Positions 1 through 43,107 of a stretch of 64,000 bases of DNA are shown here, in pieces; the stretch's first letter is position 1; the number at the start of each line of letters is the position of its first letter. The stretch comes from Pseudoalteromonas sp. UG3-2 (lineage in GTDB: Bacteria; Pseudomonadota; Gammaproteobacteria; Enterobacterales; Alteromonadaceae): contig NZ_JAWLJU010000001.1 in NCBI RefSeq assembly GCF_037120705.1, positions 248,001 to 312,000 of the forward strand, in the 5' to 3' direction. Both the position numbers and the translations under genes were made by a program. The notes under the pieces were generated by a model. The model was given only the letters and a program-made list of their open reading frames with translations, had not been told where the DNA came from and made no database searches.

Positions 1-759
1 GTCGTATTACACGTCGACCTCGACAAAGCAAAAGAGCTCACTGATCATCAAGTTTTGCAGCGGTGGAGCTACTGTTACCAAAGCTGTGAAACCGTTAATA
101 AGTTATTGTCTGGTCAGAGACTGCTCGAACACGAACAATTTAAAATCAAAACAAAGGCCAAAGAAATAAGAAGCCGACTAACTGACATTAGCTGGTTTAT
201 GCGTTCGCTAAATGAATACATCGCCAGAAAAGCCAATATTGAAGATCAGTGTACAGGCCGGTTCTGGGAGGGAAGGTTTAAGTCTCAGGCCTTACTAGAC
301 GAAGCAGCACTACTCGCATGCATGGCTTATGTCGATCTAAACCCAGTTCGGGCGAAAGAAGCTAAAACATTAGAAGGTTCTAATTTCACCAGCATTAAAA
401 AGCGTCTTTTTCATGCCGATCCTGATGATCAACCACAGGGTTTATTGCCTTTTGCCACTGACCAAGAACATAGGTCTTTGCAGCAACAATTCTTGCCCAT
501 CAGCTTAGAAGCCTATATCGACTTAGTCAAAGTCACAGGGCAATGTATTCGCAGTGACAAACCTGGCCTCTTGCCAAAAGATTCTACCCTATTGAAGCGT
601 TTAAAAATAAAGGCCATAGCCTGGATGAAAATGACAAAAGGGTTTGAGCATATCTTCCACGGTGCTGTAGGAAGGTCAAACTCTAAACGACGATTTTGCA
701 GGGCTCTATGCTTCAAACGCCTCTCAGGTATCACCAGTTGCGCTCTATTACTTGGCTAG
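1..759 (+). CDS. REP-associated tyrosine transposase (RAYT), 5' end outside window
   Basis: The reading frame is open from base 1 (it begins with residues VVLHVDLDKAKEL), so the gene starts upstream of the window and the TTG at 55 is not its start. The protein matches the complete RAYT at 61559-62530 along most of its length: both contain ISWFMR-LNE, GRFWEGRFKSQALLDEAAL, AYVDLNP and FHGA-GR. The HxH metal-binding segment of this Y1-transposase-like family would lie just before base 1 and cannot be checked. The extreme C-terminus diverges from the second copy and may be altered. RAYTs are single-copy HUH-type enzymes linked to REP palindromes, which are abundant in this window. Two GGGTGTC motifs follow it at 973 and 1074. 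Confidence 0.85.
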   Translation, partial: VVLHVDLDKAKELTDHQVLQRWSYCYQSCETVNKLLSGQRLLEHEQFKIKTKAKEIRSRLTDISWFMRSLNEYIARKANIEDQCTGRFWEGRFKSQALLDEAALLACMAYVDLNPVRAKEAKTLEGSNFTSIKKRLFHADPDDQPQGLLPFATDQEHRSLQQQFLPISLEAYIDLVKVTGQCIRSDKPGLLPKDSTLLKRLKIKAIAWMKMTKGFEHIFHGAVGRSNSKRRFCRALCFKRLSGITSCALLLG

Positions 760-32650: not shown

Positions 32651-33120
32651 TAGGCGCGATTTTACATCGCGGTTGTTTTTATGGTTTATATCGCGACAAA
32701 AGATCCCGGCGGAAAACCGCTCCCACATTTCGGTTTTGCACCTAGGTCGCGGAATCAATCCGCGCCTACAGAATTTGTGTTATTTGAATCTGTGACTCCA
32801 AAAAAGCACGCCACTTTCGTAGCAACGATTTTACATCGCGATGTTTTTAAGACGATAACATTTCGTATCTGCTGTAGGCGCGATTTTACATCGCGCTTGT
32901 TTTTATGGTTTATATCGCGACAAAAGATCCCGGCGGAAAACCGCTCCCACATTTCGGTTTTGCACCTAGGTCGCGGAATCAATCCGCGCCTACAGAATTT
33001 GTGTTATTTGAATCTGTGACTCCAAAAAAGCACGCCACTTTCGTAGCAGCGATTTTACATCGCGATGTTTTTAAGACGGTAACATTTCGTATCTGCTGTA
33101 GGCGCGATTTTATTTCGCGG
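32651..33120 (+). repeat. Near-perfect 224-bp tandem duplication of an extended REP unit
   Basis: Copies at 32651-32874 and 32875-33098 differ at only about three positions (visible at 32671/32895, 32824/33048 and 32854/33078), and a truncated third copy runs to 33120. Each contains the TAGGCGCG hairpin, inverted hairpins ending in TCCCAC and GCGCCTAC, a TTCGTAGCA-CGATTTTACATCGCG hairpin and an ATCTGCTG spacer. The two long frames read through it are repeat artefacts. Confidence 0.93.
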
Positions 33121-33152
33121 TGGTGTTATTTCTTATCGAAGCTGGCTAGTAA

Positions 33153-34409
33153 TTACTCCTTTTTACGCAACCAAAACAAACTTCCCTCAACACTAAGCCA
33201 GGCTTTTTTACCGCCGTTAGTAATATACATGATCACTTCTTCTTTAGAGCCTCGAGAATACATGTACACAGGCCCTTCTTTGTACTTTTCTTGGCCTGTC
33301 AGTATTCTAATAAAATGCTTGTTACTTTGCTTTAATTCACTTTTGAGCGCTTTTAACTCTTCACTGGATCTTTGCTGGGCATAAAACATCAAGGCTTTTG
33401 CACCAAGCATAGACAAACTCGGCTCATCAAACTCTTCTAATAACGCTTCTAGTTTTTGCCACTGCTGCAAAATAACCAAACAGTTCGCATACATATAACG
33501 GCAACCCTGGTTATCGCTGGGGTTTAATCGCAATAATTCTTCAAGTTCCTTGCTGGCCATTTCTATTTTATCGGCATTAAAATAAATCATGGCTTTGTGA
33601 TGCCGTACCAGCATGTATGGCCGAGTTTCGTGCATCAACCAAAATACTCCCTCGTTCTCCCTTTTAAAAGCAGGGGTGACAATATTTTGTTCTTCCTCGG
33701 CAATAAACGCATCTAACCTTGGGATTGACGCTACTCCTTCAAGCATCAGCAGCTCATCAACCAGCTCTTCTCTTTGTGCCTGCTCAAACTCACTTAGACC
33801 GTCAACGTAATCATTAGCAAGTAGCTCGGCATCTAGCAGCGCTTCGTCGTCCTCTTCCCCCCAGCTTAACGCGTCTTTCAAAGCAAATAGCTCCACTTTC
33901 AAAGAACGCTTTAGTTGCTGCATATGCTGTTCAAAACTATAAACTGGCTCCATGCCTTGGTAGCTTTCGCGCGCAGCAGCCAAGCTAGTAAAACTATGGA
34001 ATAGATCTCTGACGTTGTTCACATTATGTCTGGTTAAGGTAGGAAGATCAGTGGTATCGGCTATATCAAACGCCGCCACGACCCCCTGGCAAAAGCTCGG
34101 TAAGGGTTGCTCTTTCGCTAACACTGGCTCTATTTCTTTTTTCGGTAAAACACACGCTTTGGGTAGCTGATACTCTTCTTCTGTGACTAGGGTATAAGCC
34201 TCTTCACACATAAAAAGAAGTGTTTCTAGTTGAATTTTATGAATAGATTGATAATTACCAAACAAGGTTTGCAGCAGATAATCTGCCCGAAGCACGTTTT
34301 GAGTGGCAGCTAAGCCCACCAAAAAACCTTCTATTACATATTGATTAGGCTGCTTTTCGGTGGTTTCAGTAAAAGCAATAAGTGCCTTTTTCATTGCAGC
34401 AGGTAGCAT
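33153..34409 (-). CDS. UPF0149/YecA-like protein with TPR-like C-terminus
   Basis: A protein of about 418 residues from the ATG at 34409, which has an AAAAAAGGA ribosome-binding site; upstream in-frame codons give an unlikely Cys-rich leader. The N-terminal part (about 1-120, FVIGFLVGL-like NQYVIEGFLVGLAAT, LPSFCQGVVAAFD) resembles UPF0149/YecA proteins. The C-terminal part (about 255-375, MIYFNADKIEMASKELEELLRLNPSDNQGCRYMYANCLV) is TPR-like and matches proteins of the ST7-like group. The cytoplasmic function is unknown. The gene ends next to the REP array. Confidence 0.65.
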   Translation of the reverse strand: MLPAAMKKALIAFTETTEKQPNQYVIEGFLVGLAATQNVLRADYLLQTLFGNYQSIHKIQLETLLFMCEEAYTLVTEEEYQLPKACVLPKKEIEPVLAKEQPLPSFCQGVVAAFDIADTTDLPTLTRHNVNNVRDLFHSFTSLAAARESYQGMEPVYSFEQHMQQLKRSLKVELFALKDALSWGEEDDEALLDAELLANDYVDGLSEFEQAQREELVDELLMLEGVASIPRLDAFIAEEEQNIVTPAFKRENEGVFWLMHETRPYMLVRHHKAMIYFNADKIEMASKELEELLRLNPSDNQGCRYMYANCLVILQQWQKLEALLEEFDEPSLSMLGAKALMFYAQQRSSEELKALKSELKQSNKHFIRILTGQEKYKEGPVYMYSRGSKEEVIMYITNGGKKAWLSVEGSLFWLRKKE

Positions 34410-34952: not shown

Positions 34953-35555
34953 TTGTATATAAACCCATTTTTAGTTAACTTTACAAGTATTGCTTTACAA
35001 ATTCATGGTGCAGCTATCCCTTTTGCAATTGAAATCGCCTTTGTCGTCATCGCCTTGCTGATAGCCAGCTCTATTGTGTGGAGCACGATCCGCGTGGGGA
35101 TCTCCCCTATGCCTAGCTCAAACAAAGCGCGTAATGCCATCATAAAACTCGCCGAAAATACCGGAACCGGCCCTATTTACGACTTAGGCAGCGGTTGGGG
35201 AGGCTTAGCCGTGCAACTCGCCAAACAATATCCTCAGCGCCAAATAGTGGGGTATGAAGCTTCATTACTACCTTGGCTGGTGTCGGTGTGGTATAAGAAC
35301 CTCGCAGGGCTTAACAACCTCACCTTCAAAAAACAAAACTTTCTTGAAGTTGAGTTTGCCAGCGCCGATCTGCTCGTTTGCTATTTACACCCTCAAGGCA
35401 TGGCTGAAATTGCACAAAAGCTGAGCCACCAAGGCAACTTCGCTGGTTTCTTAATCAGCCATAACTTTGCCCTACCCAGCACATCACCCGAACACACACT
35501 CACCGTAGCAGACTTTTATCGCTCACCGGTGTATCGCTATCGGTTAACTATTTAG
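34953..35555 (+). CDS. Membrane-anchored class I SAM methyltransferase
   Basis: About 200 residues from a TTG at 34953; no ATG or GTG is in frame before the membrane helix, so the start is uncertain. An N-terminal helix (FAIEIAFVVIALLIASSIVW) precedes a class I methyltransferase fold with motif I YDLGSGWGGLAVQLA, acidic motif II VGYEAS, and LVCYLHPQGM as the motif IV region. The substrate is unknown. It is monocistronic, with the VOC gene about 90 bp downstream on the same strand. Confidence 0.75.
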   Translation: MYINPFLVNFTSIALQIHGAAIPFAIEIAFVVIALLIASSIVWSTIRVGISPMPSSNKARNAIIKLAENTGTGPIYDLGSGWGGLAVQLAKQYPQRQIVGYEASLLPWLVSVWYKNLAGLNNLTFKKQNFLEVEFASADLLVCYLHPQGMAEIAQKLSHQGNFAGFLISHNFALPSTSPEHTLTVADFYRSPVYRYRLTI

Positions 35556-35646: not shown

Positions 35647-36012
35647 ATGTATTTAGGCAAAGCTATTCCGCAACTCCCCTCTGGCAACCTTGAGGTGACG
35701 GCAGCATTTATGGCTAAACGACTTGGCTTTAACATTGAGTTAATACTGCCAGAGCATGGCCTCTTGATTGTGGTAAGAGACGACGCTGAAATCCACTTTT
35801 GGCAAGCCCAAAGCGAAGAACAAGCCAAAACGCTTGGCAGCTGTAGCAGCTGCTATATCAGAGTTAAAAACATCGAAGCTTTATACACACAACTGCAAGC
35901 ACTAAACGCCCCATTTAGATACGAGCTGACCACACAACCCTGGGGGATGAAAGAAATGCAAATCGACGACCCCTATGGCAACGCCATTCGCTTTGGCCAA
36001 CCTGTGAGGTAG
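35647..36012 (+). CDS. VOC-superfamily protein (bleomycin-resistance-like)
   Basis: A 121-residue protein with the paired beta-alpha-beta-beta-beta modules of the glyoxalase/bleomycin-binding fold (IPQLPSGNLEVTAAFMAKRLGF, then ILPEHGLLIVVRDDAEIHFWQ, and the C-terminal WGMKEMQIDDPYGNAIRFGQP). The short size and IHFWQA segment are those of drug-binding BLMA-type proteins rather than metal-dependent glyoxalase I. Ligand unknown. Ribosome-binding site AAGGA. Confidence 0.85.
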   Translation: MYLGKAIPQLPSGNLEVTAAFMAKRLGFNIELILPEHGLLIVVRDDAEIHFWQAQSEEQAKTLGSCSSCYIRVKNIEALYTQLQALNAPFRYELTTQPWGMKEMQIDDPYGNAIRFGQPVR

Positions 36013-36204: not shown

Positions 36205-39138
36205 TTAACCCAGAATACTTTTCAATCGTGCAAACGTCACAAACTCATCACTGGCTTCCATTACTGCATAATCAGGGTTCCTTGCCACAAGCAAGTAAGT
36301 GACTTCACCTTGCTCATTAACCTGCTTTTTTACATCTCGTAATAGAAACTGTTCGTCGCCAGCTGTATCAAATTGCTCAATAGCAATAGTCGTATTAGTA
36401 ATTGAACCGGCATTATTAGCAGTGATCCGCTCAAGCAAAAGCAAATCCCCATCAAGTATTGGGTTCTTTCCACCGTTCATGGAATTGCCACTCGCATGAG
36501 CTAAGAAATGCTTTTCCGGGTCAACTTTACCGCAGCCAGATGGAACAGGAACGTACGTCATATCGCTACTGTCACCGGTTTTAAAATGACCACAGGCAAC
36601 TTTTAGGTTTGGAAAGTATGGGAGCTTCTGAGTTTCTTCGTTTTCTTCGCTGTAAAGAGGAGTAACAGTGTCCTTAGTTTGCTCTTCTTGTCTTGTATTA
36701 TGCATTTGCGCTTGCACTGATGGCCGCTGGCTGTACTTTGCCAATGCATAATCCACTAATTCCAATACCGCAGAATTTAAGCTTTCAACTTGCTCAGTTG
36801 GCACATCAAAATTCGCTTTGAACTTGTCCCCTTCAAGCAAAAACCACTGGCTGCCATCTTTGTTTTTACTACTAAAGTGGCGAATTGGATTTCGACACCA
36901 GTAGGCAATCCAAGCTTTTGACTCTGGCTGCAGTGACATCTCTTTTTGCCCAAGGTCGTGCTGTTTTAAATTTGGGTAGCGCGATAGTATTTTTGCACTG
37001 AGCACTGCTAAGTCAGTAATTGTCGGCGGCTTTAAAAAACCATCCAATTGCACAAACGCTTGCAATAGAATTGCCTTAAAGCACTTGGTCATCGAAGTCG
37101 TTTGCACGCCCTTATTTAAGAAGTCATAAAATGGCCTGAGCTGTTCAGCGGCGTTGTGTTTATCATCATCTAAGTCAGATGTTTGGGCTATTAAATCAAA
37201 CCAACCATTGTGCTGCTTGTTCACCTTGGTTAACTCACCGTAATGGCGATAGAACTCACTTATAGTGGGCAAGTGCCCTAGCTGCTCGGCAAGCTCAGTC
37301 ACATCTTCAAGTGCTGTAGTACGCTGAGCTTTTGCGAGTTTTTGCCAAAAATCAGTGACCGCTAAATCGATATTTACATAGCAGCCATCTGGTAGGTTTG
37401 GCTTGCGTAACTTTCTTACAACGCCGGTTGCTGAGTTCTCTTGCAATAGCGCAAAAGGCTTGTTTAAAAAGCTATGGTGGTTGCCGATAAAATCCAATAC
37501 CACAAGGTGATCTTTGCCTTCATGGCGTCGCAGACCACGGCCCAGCTGCTGTAGAAAGAGAATTTTAGACTCACTCGGGCGCAACATTAATATGGTATCT
37601 ATGCTGGGTAAATCCGTACCTTCATTAAATAAATCAACGGTAAATAATACTTCAACGCGCCGATTGTCGAGCATTCTTAATGCTTCATTTCTTCTTACTT
37701 TTGACTGGCTGTGTACAGACAGAGCTTTAACCCCTGCTTTTTCAAAAGCGTTGGCCATGTAATCCGCATGTTTTGTCGACACGCAAAAGGCTAATGTGCG
37801 AGATTGCCTGTGTTTGCGCCACTGCGTTAACGCATGAGTGGCTCGTTTATTGGTGGCAAAGGTGTATTCAAGGGCATGTGGATCAAAACGACCATTGCGC
37901 CACGGGATCTCTTTATAGTTTACGTTTTCGTCCCAAATCCCGTAATAATGAAACGGCACTAAGGTGTTACTATCAATGCCTTGAGTTAAGTTGCGTTCAA
38001 AAACCAAGTTATTATCACAAAGCCCAAGAATGTCCGCTTGATCGGTTCGTTCTGGCGTTGCAGTCAAACCAAGTAGAAACTCGGGTTCAAAGTAATCCAA
38101 TAACAGCCGATAGCCAGGCGCACTGGCATGATGAAACTCATCCACAATAATATAATCGAAACAATTTTTGCTAAATTGCTGGATGTGTTCAGACCGACCA
38201 ATTGTTTGAATAGACGCAAATAAACACTCAGCATCGAACTCTTTTTGATTGCCGTTAAAGAACCCTGTTGAGTGGTTAAGTAACCTAGCAAAGGTGCGCT
38301 GCGCCTGTAATAGTATTTCTTCGCGGTGAGCAACAAATAGCACACGCTTGGCTTTAAATTGCTTGATATCAAACGCACTTAACCAGGTTTTGCCCATGCC
38401 TGTAGCCAACACTACTAAACCACGCTTAAAGCCTGCTTCTCGTGTTTTGTTAAGCGCTTCTAGTGCGTGAATTTGCTCTGGCTGTGGTGACGGAGTTTCA
38501 GTTTGCTCATCCGAAAGCTCTGGTGCCACTGCTATAAACTTTTGTTGCTTGCGTCTTTTTATATATTGGGTGATCCAGTCGTGGGTCAGTGTGACTACAT
38601 TGGGGTGCTTAAACACCTCATGAAACGCCAGTCGAATGTTGTTGAACTCTTTTGCTGCTGGGCTCGTTTCTGGGGCACCATAATCATGCCTAAAGTTCCA
38701 CTCAAAGCCACTGGTTAAGGCGCTTTTACTGATATTACTAGATCCAACAAAAGCACAACCCGACACCAACTCACCTTGCTTACTGTTCTTTACGAAGATA
38801 TATGACTTCATATGAAAGCTTTGATTAGACTGAGTTTGATAAATGCGAATATCAGCGCCTCTATCGACCAGTGCCATCAGCTCCCGCAAAGCACTAGGGT
38901 GGCTAATATCTAAATAATCAGATGTCAGTAGCTTTAACTGCGCGCCATTTGCCAACGCTTCAGAAAAAGAATCAAACAACAATGCCAAGCCACTCGGCTG
39001 AATAAAAGAAACTGTTACTTCAATCTCGTCAGCATGGTTAATTGCATGCAGTAAATGAGGTAATAACGGATCTTCGCCGCCACACGTCAGCTGTTTAGCC
39101 TCTAACTGTAATTGCATTTCTTGTTGTTTTGTCGCCAT
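36205..39138 (-). CDS. PLD-nuclease / SF2 helicase / S24 peptidase fusion (DUF3427-type helicase), probable defence protein
   Basis: A 977-residue multidomain protein. Residues about 25-180 form a phospholipase-D-like nuclease domain (FHMKSYIF and GSSNIS, the HxK and GSxN parts of the HKD motif). Residues about 225-600 form an SF2 helicase: Walker A ATGMGKTW, DEFHH box, SAT-like LGLTATPERTD, and motifs V-VI FNEGTDLPSIDT and QQLGRGLRRHEGKDH. A helical DUF3427-like middle follows. The last 137 residues are a LexA/UmuD-type S24 peptidase domain with candidate Ser886 in ASGNSMNGG and Lys937/938 in LLRDVKKQ. The gene starts 9 bp after a methyltransferase gene. It probably acts on foreign or damaged DNA. 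Confidence 0.88.
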   Translation of the reverse strand: MATKQQEMQLQLEAKQLTCGGEDPLLPHLLHAINHADEIEVTVSFIQPSGLALLFDSFSEALANGAQLKLLTSDYLDISHPSALRELMALVDRGADIRIYQTQSNQSFHMKSYIFVKNSKQGELVSGCAFVGSSNISKSALTSGFEWNFRHDYGAPETSPAAKEFNNIRLAFHEVFKHPNVVTLTHDWITQYIKRRKQQKFIAVAPELSDEQTETPSPQPEQIHALEALNKTREAGFKRGLVVLATGMGKTWLSAFDIKQFKAKRVLFVAHREEILLQAQRTFARLLNHSTGFFNGNQKEFDAECLFASIQTIGRSEHIQQFSKNCFDYIIVDEFHHASAPGYRLLLDYFEPEFLLGLTATPERTDQADILGLCDNNLVFERNLTQGIDSNTLVPFHYYGIWDENVNYKEIPWRNGRFDPHALEYTFATNKRATHALTQWRKHRQSRTLAFCVSTKHADYMANAFEKAGVKALSVHSQSKVRRNEALRMLDNRRVEVLFTVDLFNEGTDLPSIDTILMLRPSESKILFLQQLGRGLRRHEGKDHLVVLDFIGNHHSFLNKPFALLQENSATGVVRKLRKPNLPDGCYVNIDLAVTDFWQKLAKAQRTTALEDVTELAEQLGHLPTISEFYRHYGELTKVNKQHNGWFDLIAQTSDLDDDKHNAAEQLRPFYDFLNKGVQTTSMTKCFKAILLQAFVQLDGFLKPPTITDLAVLSAKILSRYPNLKQHDLGQKEMSLQPESKAWIAYWCRNPIRHFSSKNKDGSQWFLLEGDKFKANFDVPTEQVESLNSAVLELVDYALAKYSQRPSVQAQMHNTRQEEQTKDTVTPLYSEENEETQKLPYFPNLKVACGHFKTGDSSDMTYVPVPSGCGKVDPEKHFLAHASGNSMNGGKNPILDGDLLLLERITANNAGSITNTTIAIEQFDTAGDEQFLLRDVKKQVNEQGEVTYLLVARNPDYAVMEASDEFVTFARLKSILG

Positions 39139-39147
39139 TGGTTACTC

Positions 39148-39738
39148 TTAACGTCTCTTTAGCAGCGCATTTAACCACAGCTCATGTTCTCTGCCGGGCC
39201 GTTGATCGCAAGTTTGCCAAACTTCGAAGACCTCAAGCCATTGCTGCTTAGCCACAAGCTCGGCTAAACCACTCTCATTTAGATCCGTAAAATGCCTACC
39301 TTGTGCATTACGCTCCGCGTCACCGTATTTAAAGCTGACATAAAGGGTACCGCCGGACTTTAATGCTGTTGTTAAATTTTGAAAGGCGCTAGGTAATTCC
39401 TCTTGTTTTACATGCAACAAACTGGCGCAGCACCATATGCCATCGTATTGCTGATTTTCAGACAACTCTGCAAAGGTTTTAACCTGTACTTTTTCGCCAA
39501 GTAAGTTACTGGCAAAAGCAGCCAACTCAGGGCAAGCGTCAAAAGCACTGACCTTAAAGCCCACTTTTTTAAAATGCAGCGCGTCCCGCCCTGAGCCGCA
39601 GCCAGCATCTAAAATATGACCACCAGCGGGAATATTGGGGAGAAAGCGCTGATATAAGGGGCTCATGTCAACATTTAAAGTCGACTCAGTAAAAGATTGA
39701 CTGTTCTTACGATAAAACTCAACAGTTGCGTTTGGCAT
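39148..39738 (-). CDS. Class I SAM methyltransferase (TehB-like) coupled to the helicase
   Basis: A 196-residue class I methyltransferase with motif I ILDAGCGSGRDALHFKKVG, VSAFDACPELA and IWCCASLLHVKQEELP, the pattern of TehB/UbiE-like small-molecule methyltransferases. No DNA-methylase motif (DPPY or PCQ) is visible, so it is unlikely to be an ordinary modification enzyme. It lies directly upstream of the PLD-helicase gene with a 9-bp gap on the same strand. Its role in the pair is unknown. Confidence 0.85.
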   Translation of the reverse strand: MPNATVEFYRKNSQSFTESTLNVDMSPLYQRFLPNIPAGGHILDAGCGSGRDALHFKKVGFKVSAFDACPELAAFASNLLGEKVQVKTFAELSENQQYDGIWCCASLLHVKQEELPSAFQNLTTALKSGGTLYVSFKYGDAERNAQGRHFTDLNESGLAELVAKQQWLEVFEVWQTCDQRPGREHELWLNALLKRR

Positions 39739-39901
39739 GCTTTACCTTTTGTTTTTTCGGCAAAATTTAAATCCTTTCTAAGTTAATATTAAACCTGAAA
39801 ATGAGCTAATTTCATAGTAAACATGCTTAGATACCTCGGTTTACATCAATGAAACAATCACATACATTGGATGTTAGGCATTGACGAAGCGAGGAAGCGC
39901 C

Positions 39902-41425
39902 ATGCATTTCAAACATAAAATCACCAATGAACGGCCTTATAACACCGGTGGAAATGAGGCCAGTAGCCTAGAGAGTGATCGGGGTCGTATCATCAACAGT
40001 GCGGCGCTTCGGCGGTTGCAGCAAAAAACTCAGGTGTTTCCGCTGGAGCGCAATGCGGCGGTGCGTTCGCGGTTAACCCATTCCCTTGAGGTGCAGCAAA
40101 ATGGTCGTTTTATTGCCAAGAAAATTGTCGCTGAACTGCAAAAGCAAGGTCGTGGTGAGTTATTAAAGTATCAAGATAAGAACGGCCATGAAGTGGATCT
40201 AGGCGAATGCTTGGTAACGCTGTCGGAAATGGCGTGTTTGCTGCACGACATTGGTAATCCGGCCTTTGGCCATTTTGGCGAAGCGGCGATTAATGACTGG
40301 TTTAAGCGTTACCTAAGTGCCGAACCTCGTTTTGCCAACAGCACTAAAACGGCGCTTAGTTTTGGTCAACAAACGCCGCAAGAATCGGATTTAGCGGTAT
40401 TAACCCCAGAAATGGAATTGCTGCTGGATATTTGTAGTTTTGAGGGCAATGCGCAAGCCATTCGGGTTATTCATACCTTGTCTGAGCTTAATCTCACCTA
40501 TTCGCAAACCGCCACCATTTTAAAATATACCCGCGCGGCGACAACGCCTAAGTCTACGGTGGCCGATGCCTTTAGTACGCTGCAAAAGAAAGTAGGATAT
40601 TACTACAGCGAGAGCGAGTTTATTTCGGAGCTGTGCGACAAGCTGCAAATGCCGCTGGGTCATCGCCATCCTGTGGCTTATATTATGGAAGCGGCTGATG
40701 ACATCGCTTATTGCCTTGCCGATATGGAAGATGCGGTAGAAAAAGGTATTTTAGGGGTCGATGAGCTCACCGCCCTGTTAATTGAAGAATATCAGACCAT
40801 TGCCACCCGCTTTGGGATCAGTGACGACAAGCACTTGGAGCTGATGAGTAAAAAGCTTCATTATGCTAACGATAAGGCCAGTAAGCACCCGGATAACTTT
40901 GAAAACGAGTTCTTTATTTGGTTGCGGGTGGGGTTGTTGCATCCTTTGGTTGAGCATGCCAAAGACCGCTTTATTACTAATCTTGAGGCCGTATACGACG
41001 GCAGCTTTAATGGGGCTTTGCTAGAAGACAAAAGTCACCTGCACGCCATTGCCAAAGCGTTAAAAGTGGTGGCGGCGAAACGGGTGTTTTCTGATAAGGA
41101 AGTTGAGCAGCTAGAGCTGCAGGGATACAAGATCACCAGTGGTATTTTAAATGAATACCAACGGGTGTTGGATTTGGATGAGTCGGCCTTTCAAGCTGCG
41201 CTTGCTGGTGATAATGGTTTTGCTGTGGAGTCGCGGTTATTAAATCGCATTTCGAAAAAGTATGTTGCCGTGTATCGGGCTGCGGTTGCCGAGTTGAGCG
41301 AGTCGCAGCGTGAGCAGGCTGTTTATGAGTTTTATTATCGCTGCCGCTTGTTGCAAGACTTTATTAGCGGCATGACTGACCAATTTGCTTACGATACCTA
41401 TCGGGTGTTGACTGCGATTGATTAG
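39902..41425 (+). CDS. dgt: Deoxyguanosinetriphosphate triphosphohydrolase (dGTPase)
   Basis: A 507-residue HD-domain enzyme from the ATG at 39902, preceded by GAGGA; an upstream TTG is in frame. It follows E. coli Dgt closely in the region SDRGRIINSAALRRLQQKTQVFPLERNAAVRSRLTHSLEVQQ (residues about 25-66). The HD metal site includes H60, H115-D116 in CLLHDIGNPAFGHFGE and a later Asp in MEAADDIAYCLADMEDA. It hydrolyses dGTP to deoxyguanosine and triphosphate. It is a chromosomal nucleotide-pool enzyme, but dGTPases also restrict phages, and it stands divergently next to the helicase-methyltransferase pair. Confidence 0.95.
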   Translation: MHFKHKITNERPYNTGGNEASSLESDRGRIINSAALRRLQQKTQVFPLERNAAVRSRLTHSLEVQQNGRFIAKKIVAELQKQGRGELLKYQDKNGHEVDLGECLVTLSEMACLLHDIGNPAFGHFGEAAINDWFKRYLSAEPRFANSTKTALSFGQQTPQESDLAVLTPEMELLLDICSFEGNAQAIRVIHTLSELNLTYSQTATILKYTRAATTPKSTVADAFSTLQKKVGYYYSESEFISELCDKLQMPLGHRHPVAYIMEAADDIAYCLADMEDAVEKGILGVDELTALLIEEYQTIATRFGISDDKHLELMSKKLHYANDKASKHPDNFENEFFIWLRVGLLHPLVEHAKDRFITNLEAVYDGSFNGALLEDKSHLHAIAKALKVVAAKRVFSDKEVEQLELQGYKITSGILNEYQRVLDLDESAFQAALAGDNGFAVESRLLNRISKKYVAVYRAAVAELSESQREQAVYEFYYRCRLLQDFISGMTDQFAYDTYRVLTAID

Positions 41426-41837: not shown

Positions 41838-42248
41838 TTAATTGCTTTGTGAATTGAGAATTTGTTTTATATAAAGCTCAAAGTCGCCCAAATGATGTTT
41901 AACCACCGCAATAACAATGTCGATGTTGAGTGCCTGATAATCATGGACGGCAATGTTTCTTAGGCCGACCATTTTTTGTAAGTTTTGGGCCACGGTGGCA
42001 TCGATAAAGTTACCTGTCTCTATTAGTTCGAAACAATGTCTTGAAGATTGTGGAATGCCAAGCTGGTGCTGTTTTATTAATACATTAGCGATATCGATTG
42101 CCGCCTCACAGGCGCGCTGGAGGTTTAGAATAACAGAGTCTTGCTTGGTAAAGTTGGTTTTAAACTCAGCTTCATCGCTAAACTCTTCGTTTATGCGTGT
42201 TAAACAGCGTTTAATGTTGGCTATTTTATTGAGGATGACATCATTCAT
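41838..42248 (-). CDS. hepT: HepT-like HEPN ribonuclease toxin
   Basis: A 136-residue HEPN-domain (DUF86) protein from the ATG at 42248. The active-site motif R97-x4-H102-x-Y104 (RNIAVHDY) is complete; in the MntA-HepT systems H and R form the RNase site and the Tyr is AMPylated by the antitoxin. The start overlaps the MntA stop by 8 bp, the usual coupled arrangement. It would cleave RNA and arrest growth when released. The longer frame to 42359 lies inside mntA and is not used. Confidence 0.93.
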   Translation of the reverse strand: MNDVILNKIANIKRCLTRINEEFSDEAEFKTNFTKQDSVILNLQRACEAAIDIANVLIKQHQLGIPQSSRHCFELIETGNFIDATVAQNLQKMVGLRNIAVHDYQALNIDIVIAVVKHHLGDFELYIKQILNSQSN

Positions 42249-42636
42249 CTTTAACACCTTGAATGTATGCATCAACCACATCGCGACGCTGCTCTTGCAA
42301 ATGCGCATACATTGAATAAGCTGCGGCACTGAATGTATCGTCTTCGATCTTCTCGCCAAATAGTAGCCTTCCTGTACTTGCGACCTGCATTTTTAGCACC
42401 GTACTTGCCTGGCGTAAATCGACTAAGTCAACATCGCAGTCTAGTCTAATGGCGAGCTCTTGAGCAATTGTGAACCTTTGATAGTTATCAAGTGGTTGGC
42501 TGGTTAATATTGCCACGTCGTAGTCGCTTTTAGTGGTGTTAGAGCCATCAGCGCGAGAGCCAAATAAATACACCAAAGTCAGTGTGGGGATCTTTTCGCG
42601 TAAGCACTGAACAATGATTTTTTCTTTTTCTATCAT
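42241..42636 (-). CDS. mntA: MntA-like nucleotidyltransferase antitoxin
   Basis: A 131-residue minimal nucleotidyltransferase from the ATG at 42636; the frame extends upstream but without homology or a ribosome-binding site. The GSRADGSNTTKSDYD motif (G26-S27, D38, D40) is the NTase active site. MntA antitoxins oligo-AMPylate the Tyr of the HEPN toxin. It overlaps hepT by 8 bp. It lies in the same gene neighbourhood as the helicase and dGTPase genes, surrounded by repeat DNA. Confidence 0.93.
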   Translation of the reverse strand: MIEKEKIIVQCLREKIPTLTLVYLFGSRADGSNTTKSDYDVAILTSQPLDNYQRFTIAQELAIRLDCDVDLVDLRQASTVLKMQVASTGRLLFGEKIEDDTFSAAAYSMYAHLQEQRRDVVDAYIQGVKDE

Positions 42637-43107
42637 AGCCTTCACTTTTGCTCGTTTACTTTGGTAAGTATACCGCTTTTTGCTAAAAAGATAAGCCTTG
42701 TTAGGAGTTCGGTCAGATAGTGATTTTGTGGCTTTTAGTTTTTGGAAGCGATTTATGAAAACAATGTCCATTTTAGGTTTGGTTATGATTGCTTGTTTAT
42801 AGGTAGCACCTTGATTGATAGCTGGTTTCACCAGGTGAAGCGGTGCAAAATTGGGGTTTTTAATACTTGGTTAAAAGTGGGTGTCTTGATAACGCTTTGC
42901 TCTATAAAAGATCGCCGCGTAAAGCATCGCCTTCTTTACAGTTTGGTGCTTAGCTTTTAACGGGTGTCCTGACAGTTTATTCTAAAGCTGCCACTTCAAG
43001 TGGGTGTCCTGATAAAATCATCCCTGACTATAAAAGCTCGCCGCATAAAGCGGCGCCTACCTTGCAGTTATGGTAATTAGCTTTTGATGATGTCCTGGCA
43101 ATTAGCT
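42637..43107 (+). repeat. Intergenic repeat block downstream of DKNYY gene
   Basis: GGGTGTC motifs at 42879, 42962 and 43002, a decayed REP-type hairpin at 42909-42933 and an intact one (TCGCCGCATAAAGCGGCGCC then TAC) at about 43038-43060. The MntA promoter should lie at the left end. No gene is seen. Confidence 0.8.

Follow-up and report, generated by a model that had tools for sequence, protein, structure and literature searches.

A two-gene unit in the Pseudoalteromonas sp. UG3-2 genome

We analysed a 64,000-nucleotide stretch of the genome of the marine bacterium Pseudoalteromonas sp. UG3-2 (contig NZ_JAWLJU010000001.1, positions 248,001 to 312,000; hereafter "the window"). Its reverse strand carries a unit of two genes, encoding a small S-adenosylmethionine (SAM)-dependent methyltransferase and, next to it, a protein that combines a phospholipase D (PLD)-type nuclease, a superfamily 2 (SF2) helicase motor and an S24/LexA-fold domain (Table 1). 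This 977-aa protein exhibits PLDc_2, ResIII, Helicase_C and Peptidase_S24 matches in that order, every one above its Pfam cut-off. The four domains bear out the original prediction, made by a model from the letters of the window, that nuclease, helicase and S24 domain share one polypeptide. Scans for promoters and terminators gave matches at chance level only.

The same prediction took the 9-bp gap between the genes as a sign of a two-gene system, and the coupling proved tighter than claimed. In the best 80 of at least 458 relatives by helicase profile, a set that is not a random sample, a related methyltransferase accompanies the helicase in 66 loci: it is fused N-terminally in 30, and in the other 36 its gene immediately precedes the helicase gene in the same orientation. 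The fusions include two broken off at a contig edge (L018 and L055), whose reading frames were checked; among the upstream copies, identity is only 25-27% in L033, L034, L057 and L066, and the L044 copy is in pieces. Among the remaining 14 loci, two (L059 and L080) lie at contig edges, one (L047) has a distant methyltransferase in convergent orientation, in another (L064) a distant copy immediately upstream was detected by profile only, and no methyltransferase was found in the truncated locus L063; the others are weighed below. In a more distant clade, a HIT domain occupies the N-terminal place of the methyltransferase (e.g. residues 12-104 of the open reading frame (ORF) at 7572-11141 of L071).

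The association also holds in genome samples. Of 147 genomes sampled at family level, 26 contain the methyltransferase (E<=1e-30) and 15 the S24 subfamily (E<=1e-20), both occurring together in 14 (Fisher p 1e-11); in the fifteenth S24 genome (G024), the gene immediately upstream encodes a distant methyltransferase. Among 60 Pseudoalteromonas genomes, 13 possess the helicase, and the methyltransferase is alongside in all eight loci read out of the 12 outside the window. The methyltransferase is retained in six loci where S24 is gone (L016, L021, L044, L048, L052 and L122).

Table 1. Positions of the two genes and of their domains and conserved residues in the window
Feature	Position	Strand	Basis
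Methyltransferase (class I, SAM-dependent; 196 aa), encoded first in the unit	39148..39738	-	ORF list, Pfam
Gap of 9 bp, methyltransferase stop to helicase start	39139..39147	-	
PLD-SF2-S24 protein, 977 aa (coordinates include the stop codon)	36205..39138	-	ORF list, Pfam
PLD-type nuclease domain, residues 30-167	38638..39051	-	Pfam PLDc_2, E 2.3e-10
His109, aligned with SauUSI H119	38812..38814	-	Alignment to SauUSI
SF2 RecA-like domain 1 (ResIII), residues 217-364	38047..38490	-	Pfam, E 1.2e-39
ResIII motifs: Walker A TGMGKT 246-251, DEFH 333-336		-	Invariant or nearly so in family rows
SF2 RecA-like domain 2 (Helicase_C), residues 438-538	37525..37827	-	Pfam, E 1.8e-13
Helical coupler-like region and linker, residues ~560-829	36652..37461	-	Helices in model; SauUSI match reaches residue 812
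S24/LexA-fold C-terminal domain, residues 830-977	36208..36651	-	Pfam, structural model
A848-C849-G850, place of LexA/UmuD cleavage site	36589..36597	-	Invariant in 80/80 family rows
S886, place of S24 nucleophile	36481..36483	-	Ser in 121/121 and 80/80 rows
R934, place of S24 general-base lysine	36337..36339	-	Arg in 121/121 and 80/80 rows
K938, conserved Lys	36325..36327	-	121/121 and 76/80 rows

The nuclease and motor resemble SauUSI

The closest characterised protein is SauUSI (PDB 7clg), which matches the first 812 residues of the window protein in a structural comparison. The catalytic histidine of SauUSI corresponds to H109, and H109, K111, N135 and E146 are invariant across 32 rows. 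The H119A version of SauUSI serves as the non-cutting one (PMC7913695). RadD and XPB are also among the structural matches of the SF2 motor. Its sequence marks the effector as a machine like SauUSI, made of a PLD nuclease, an SF2 motor and a coupler.

This kinship suggests that the S24-fold domain might be a DNA-binding part that chooses the site of action, placed where SauUSI has its SRA domain. It does sit after the coupler, as the SRA domain does in SauUSI (PMC7913695); a Pfam scan of the window protein gave no DUF3427 or SRA match, and all scanned proteins joining S24 to an HNH or another SF2 domain (see below) also end with S24. However, S24 and DUF3427 coexist in L022, L033 and L063, so the two are no simple substitutes, and we rejected a plain replacement of the SRA domain by S24 on this ground. 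Moreover, L016, L048 and L052 stop after the coupler with neither domain. We regard a site-choosing role as unlikely, although it survives better than the other alternatives considered here.

A second PLD-SF2 protein is found close by in L003, L004, L012, L072, L150 and L151, the L004 copy ending in DUF3427. A very long gene for a DEAD/Helicase_C and UvrD-type helicase lies near the PLD-SF2 gene in L044 (1727 aa), L063, L071, L074 and L079, with a Pfam assignment for L044 only.

The S24 domain carries an arginine at the place of the general base

The original prediction left room for an unrelated fold at the C-terminus. The structural model, compared with known structures, exhibits a well-modelled LexA/CI fold there, in agreement with the Pfam match. 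It aligns with LexA and CI from its residue 8-9 onward, which means that the cleavage-site region is included, and the nearest solved sequence is UmuD (E 4e-4). Ser886 and the Ala-Cys-Gly triplet are invariant in the family; at the cleavage-site place, the 27 ordinary S24 domains used as controls exhibit Ala-Gly in 25 cases and Thr-Gly in one, the last being unaligned. These controls are the 27 of 32 loci recovered by pattern (five were missed), and the 80-row family set holds near-duplicates (L009/L136 and L060/L121).

A difference from LexA concerns the general base. The place of LexA Lys156 is taken in the sequence alignment by R934, an arginine in 80/80 family rows against a lysine in 27/27 controls. 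A 4-residue insertion precedes R934 relative to most controls, and K938 follows it by four residues on the same predicted strand (929-940). Of the dyad first proposed, S886 with K937/K938, the serine is confirmed as invariant, whereas the two lysines are rejected as its partner, R934 holding the lysine place.

It had also been suggested that RecA filaments trigger self-cleavage and so switch the protein on or off. Such a working autoprotease, cut at C849-G850, would fit the invariant nucleophile and triplet, the span of the model alignment and the kinship with UmuD. Against it stand the arginine in every family row and the lack of a LexA-box-like site upstream of the operon: allowing at most one mismatch, the window contains 19 such sites against 22.9 expected, and the region upstream of the methyltransferase has none. 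We accordingly rejected SOS regulation by a LexA box, and a switchable autoprotease appears improbable. From the aligned residues, it is doubtful that the protein cleaves itself in the classical, RecA-triggered way; cleavage that is slow or has another trigger may occur, since both the nucleophile and the Ala-Cys-Gly bond have been retained. The Lys156-to-Arg mutant of LexA is said to cleave still, albeit much more slowly.

One methyltransferase family accompanies different nucleases

We surveyed effectors in the neighbourhoods of all 26 methyltransferase genomes of the family-level sample. The methyltransferase lies beside PLD-SF2 proteins in part of these neighbourhoods. Other partners are SF2 proteins lacking a PLD match; L105, L109 and L110 carry S24, L104 and L111 do not, and the N-terminal ~250 residues of all five gave no Pfam match. 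HNH proteins are likewise found with S24 (L106, L107 and L108) or without it (L112, L113, L114, L116, L117, L118 and L133), and in L115 the HNH gene is on the other side of the methyltransferase. The HNH match is below the Pfam cut-off in L116 and L118, both being 56-57% identical to L115, which is above it. The HNH proteins of L107 (with S24) and L114 (without) are 78.5% identical over ~334 residues, indicating that S24 can come or go while the nuclease stays the same. In the S24 tree, the domains of SF2 and HNH proteins are intermixed with those of PLD proteins (four changes); the methyltransferase tree requires 12 effector changes.

A class-level sample of 369 genomes contains the methyltransferase in seven genomes, at eight places. 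Three or four of these are PLD-SF2 cases: the window, G341, contig C26 of G467, and G452, where the genes are split over contigs and a 142-aa ORF separates the methyltransferase from the nuclease fragment. The family also adjoins known defence genes, each time in a single genome for the first two cases. In G348 (L129:4144-8171), a relative precedes a HamA-HamB pair (Hachiman) by 2 bp. In G467 (L126:6-5403, reverse strand), another lies upstream of JetA and JetC (Wadjet), at a distance of at least ~130 bp and at a contig end. In G111 (L119:3134-9005), from the family-level sample, a 508-aa protein ends in the methyltransferase domain, and its gene neighbours DUF4007 and SspC genes of a phosphorothioation-type defence cluster. 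The fusions, the SauUSI kinship and the occurrence of the same methyltransferase before HNH, other SF2, Hachiman and Wadjet proteins all go beyond the original prediction.

The methyltransferase lacks the hallmarks of DNA methyltransferases

Motif I, W102 and S106-L107-L108-H109 are invariant in 92 methyltransferase rows. The motif IV region takes the form WxCASLLH in these rows, without a DNA-methyltransferase-type motif; the known types are DPPY/NPPY or PC-type. Its 196 aa also leave no space for a target-recognition domain. Both features agree with the earlier suggestion that the unit follows a logic other than classical restriction-modification. The label "TehB-like" is a loose one, which stands by Pfam PF03848 (34.9 against a 20.4-bit cut-off) and falls by the NCBIfam TehB model (36.9 against 218 bits). 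The methyltransferase encoded in the window matches positions 288-428 of the PADLOC mad2 model (E 3.8e-14). Going by sequence features, a methyltransferase without DNA-methyltransferase hallmarks is the effector's usual partner.

Could the pair be an unusual restriction-modification system, whose small methyltransferase would protect the cell's own DNA by modifying it? The order of the genes, modification before restriction, and the fusions would suit this idea, as would the match of all 23 scanned methyltransferases to the mad2 profile of MADS (best 2.4e-17). However, the absent motif IV and the small size argue against it, and the closest relative in the PDB, 3e23, is uncharacterised, with small-molecule methyltransferases among the later ones. 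We also know of no requirement for self-methylation in Hachiman or Wadjet. Such a pair is therefore quite improbable.

Distribution and neighbourhood

The distribution is patchy, as the helicase counts in the genus (13/60) and the methyltransferase counts in the class (7/369) show, and the genomic contexts of the unit differ within Pseudoalteromonas. One plasmid-borne copy adjoins an ABC-three-component system. A phage-borne origin was considered and rejected: 182 phage records matched, and among the 10 matches listed none spans 80% of the query at a single place; the 80 loci retained from 98 viral-contig relatives match up to residue 699 at most.

Divergent from the methyltransferase gene lies a dGTPase gene (39881-41425, forward strand) above the PRK04926 cut-off. 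In two other Pseudoalteromonas genomes (L144 and L145) the pair adjoins the same flank of the dGTPase; in two more (L142 and L143) the dGTPase is present without the pair. Beyond it, a HepT/MntA type VII toxin-antitoxin pair (41838-42831, reverse strand) is above both NCBIfam cut-offs. Downstream of the unit, a second small methyltransferase (34953-35555) and a glyoxalase/bleomycin-resistance-fold protein (35647-36012), both on the forward strand, are below the NCBIfam cut-offs. At 32681-33384 (forward strand), a repeat occurs ~224 bp apart, and two overlapping ORFs start with a near-identical long peptide.

Proposed function

These data are best read as a methyltransferase that is associated with defence and whose partner nucleases can be exchanged, with S24 as an optional module. 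For the window we favour a two-gene DNA-targeting nuclease unit (probability about 0.55), most likely acting in defence against phages or other foreign DNA, with restraint by the methyltransferase and with S24 as a docking or sensing module. By analogy with SauUSI, the effector would load on DNA, the motor would translocate, and a PLD dimer would cut. Rather than being a rapid autoprotease of the SOS response, the S24-like domain would hold or release the nuclease, and it may cleave slowly or under the control of a ligand. The methyltransferase may be a restraint or licensing factor that methylates the effector protein, a nucleotide or, less likely, DNA; this role is suggested because the enzyme is retained where S24 has gone and where a different nuclease is present, and because it is without DNA-methyltransferase hallmarks. 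The phage-defence role, the methyltransferase substrate and the S24 function are all inferred. Defence is favoured by the patchy distribution, the differing contexts within the genus, the restriction-enzyme kinship, the Hachiman, Wadjet and Ssp neighbours and the plasmid-borne copy.

Several observations weigh against this proposal. No clear defence island was seen among the window neighbours, and the dGTPase, which passes the general PRK04926 model, fails the anti-phage one (164 against 400 bits). Six of the 80 helicase loci (L070, L071, L074, L075, L077 and L078) have an N-terminal HIT domain with no methyltransferase found alongside, and three of the 63 S24-bearing loci (L020, L053 and L056) yielded no methyltransferase, although the gene is not broken off. 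In G348 the methyltransferase is a shorter version whose match covers only residues 7-162, and two of the eight class-sample places (G342 and G344) are without a nuclease in the neighbourhood. HIT and NUDIX partners would suit DNA-end repair as well. A repair enzyme for unusual DNA ends, to which the HIT domains, the NUDIX-type genes near three of the 80 loci (Pfam-confirmed for L025 only) and the RadD and XPB matches might point, is nevertheless very unlikely given the patchy presence, the changing contexts within one genus, the repeated nuclease swaps and the proximity to SauUSI, and the Hachiman and Wadjet contexts make it less likely still while strengthening the defence proposal.

More tentatively, with the odds against it at present but slightly improved by the Hachiman and Wadjet contexts, the unit may represent a methyltransferase-centred class of DNA defence. 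In such a class, one family without DNA-methyltransferase hallmarks would restrain swappable effectors (PLD-SF2, SF2, several HNH types, sometimes Hachiman or Wadjet), and a pseudo-protease of LexA fold, marked by its invariant Ser-Arg pair, would be a portable control module that senses a signal of phage or damage and does not rely on classical self-cleavage. If true, this would join a nuclease motor of type IV-like kind to a control domain with a LexA fold and to a small methyltransferase. The presence of one methyltransferase family before many nucleases suggests that DNA defences in bacteria have a step of control in common, and the Lys-to-Arg change would offer a clean test case for S24 signalling without self-cleavage.

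Comparison with known systems

The window protein shares its PLD nuclease, SF2 motor and coupler, in the same order, with SauUSI, an ATP-dependent type IV restriction endonuclease. SauUSI ends with a methyl-DNA-reading SRA domain, whereas the window protein has an S24-like domain and a methyltransferase partner instead. Like the S24 domains of LexA and UmuD, the window domain possesses the serine nucleophile and the Ala/Cys-Gly scissile bond; in LexA, UmuD and lambda CI the general base is lysine, in contrast to the arginine of this nuclease-attached family. The methyltransferase passes the Pfam TehB model and far misses the NCBIfam equivalog cut-off, and its partner is a nuclease. Its catalytic region is similar to that of MADS Mad2, but the Mad2 model spans 492 positions; no MADS gene set appeared in the window in a PADLOC scan covering five of its proteins. 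Finally, relatives of the methyltransferase adjoin Hachiman, Wadjet and Ssp genes in G348, G467 and G111, whereas the window effector belongs to none of these systems.
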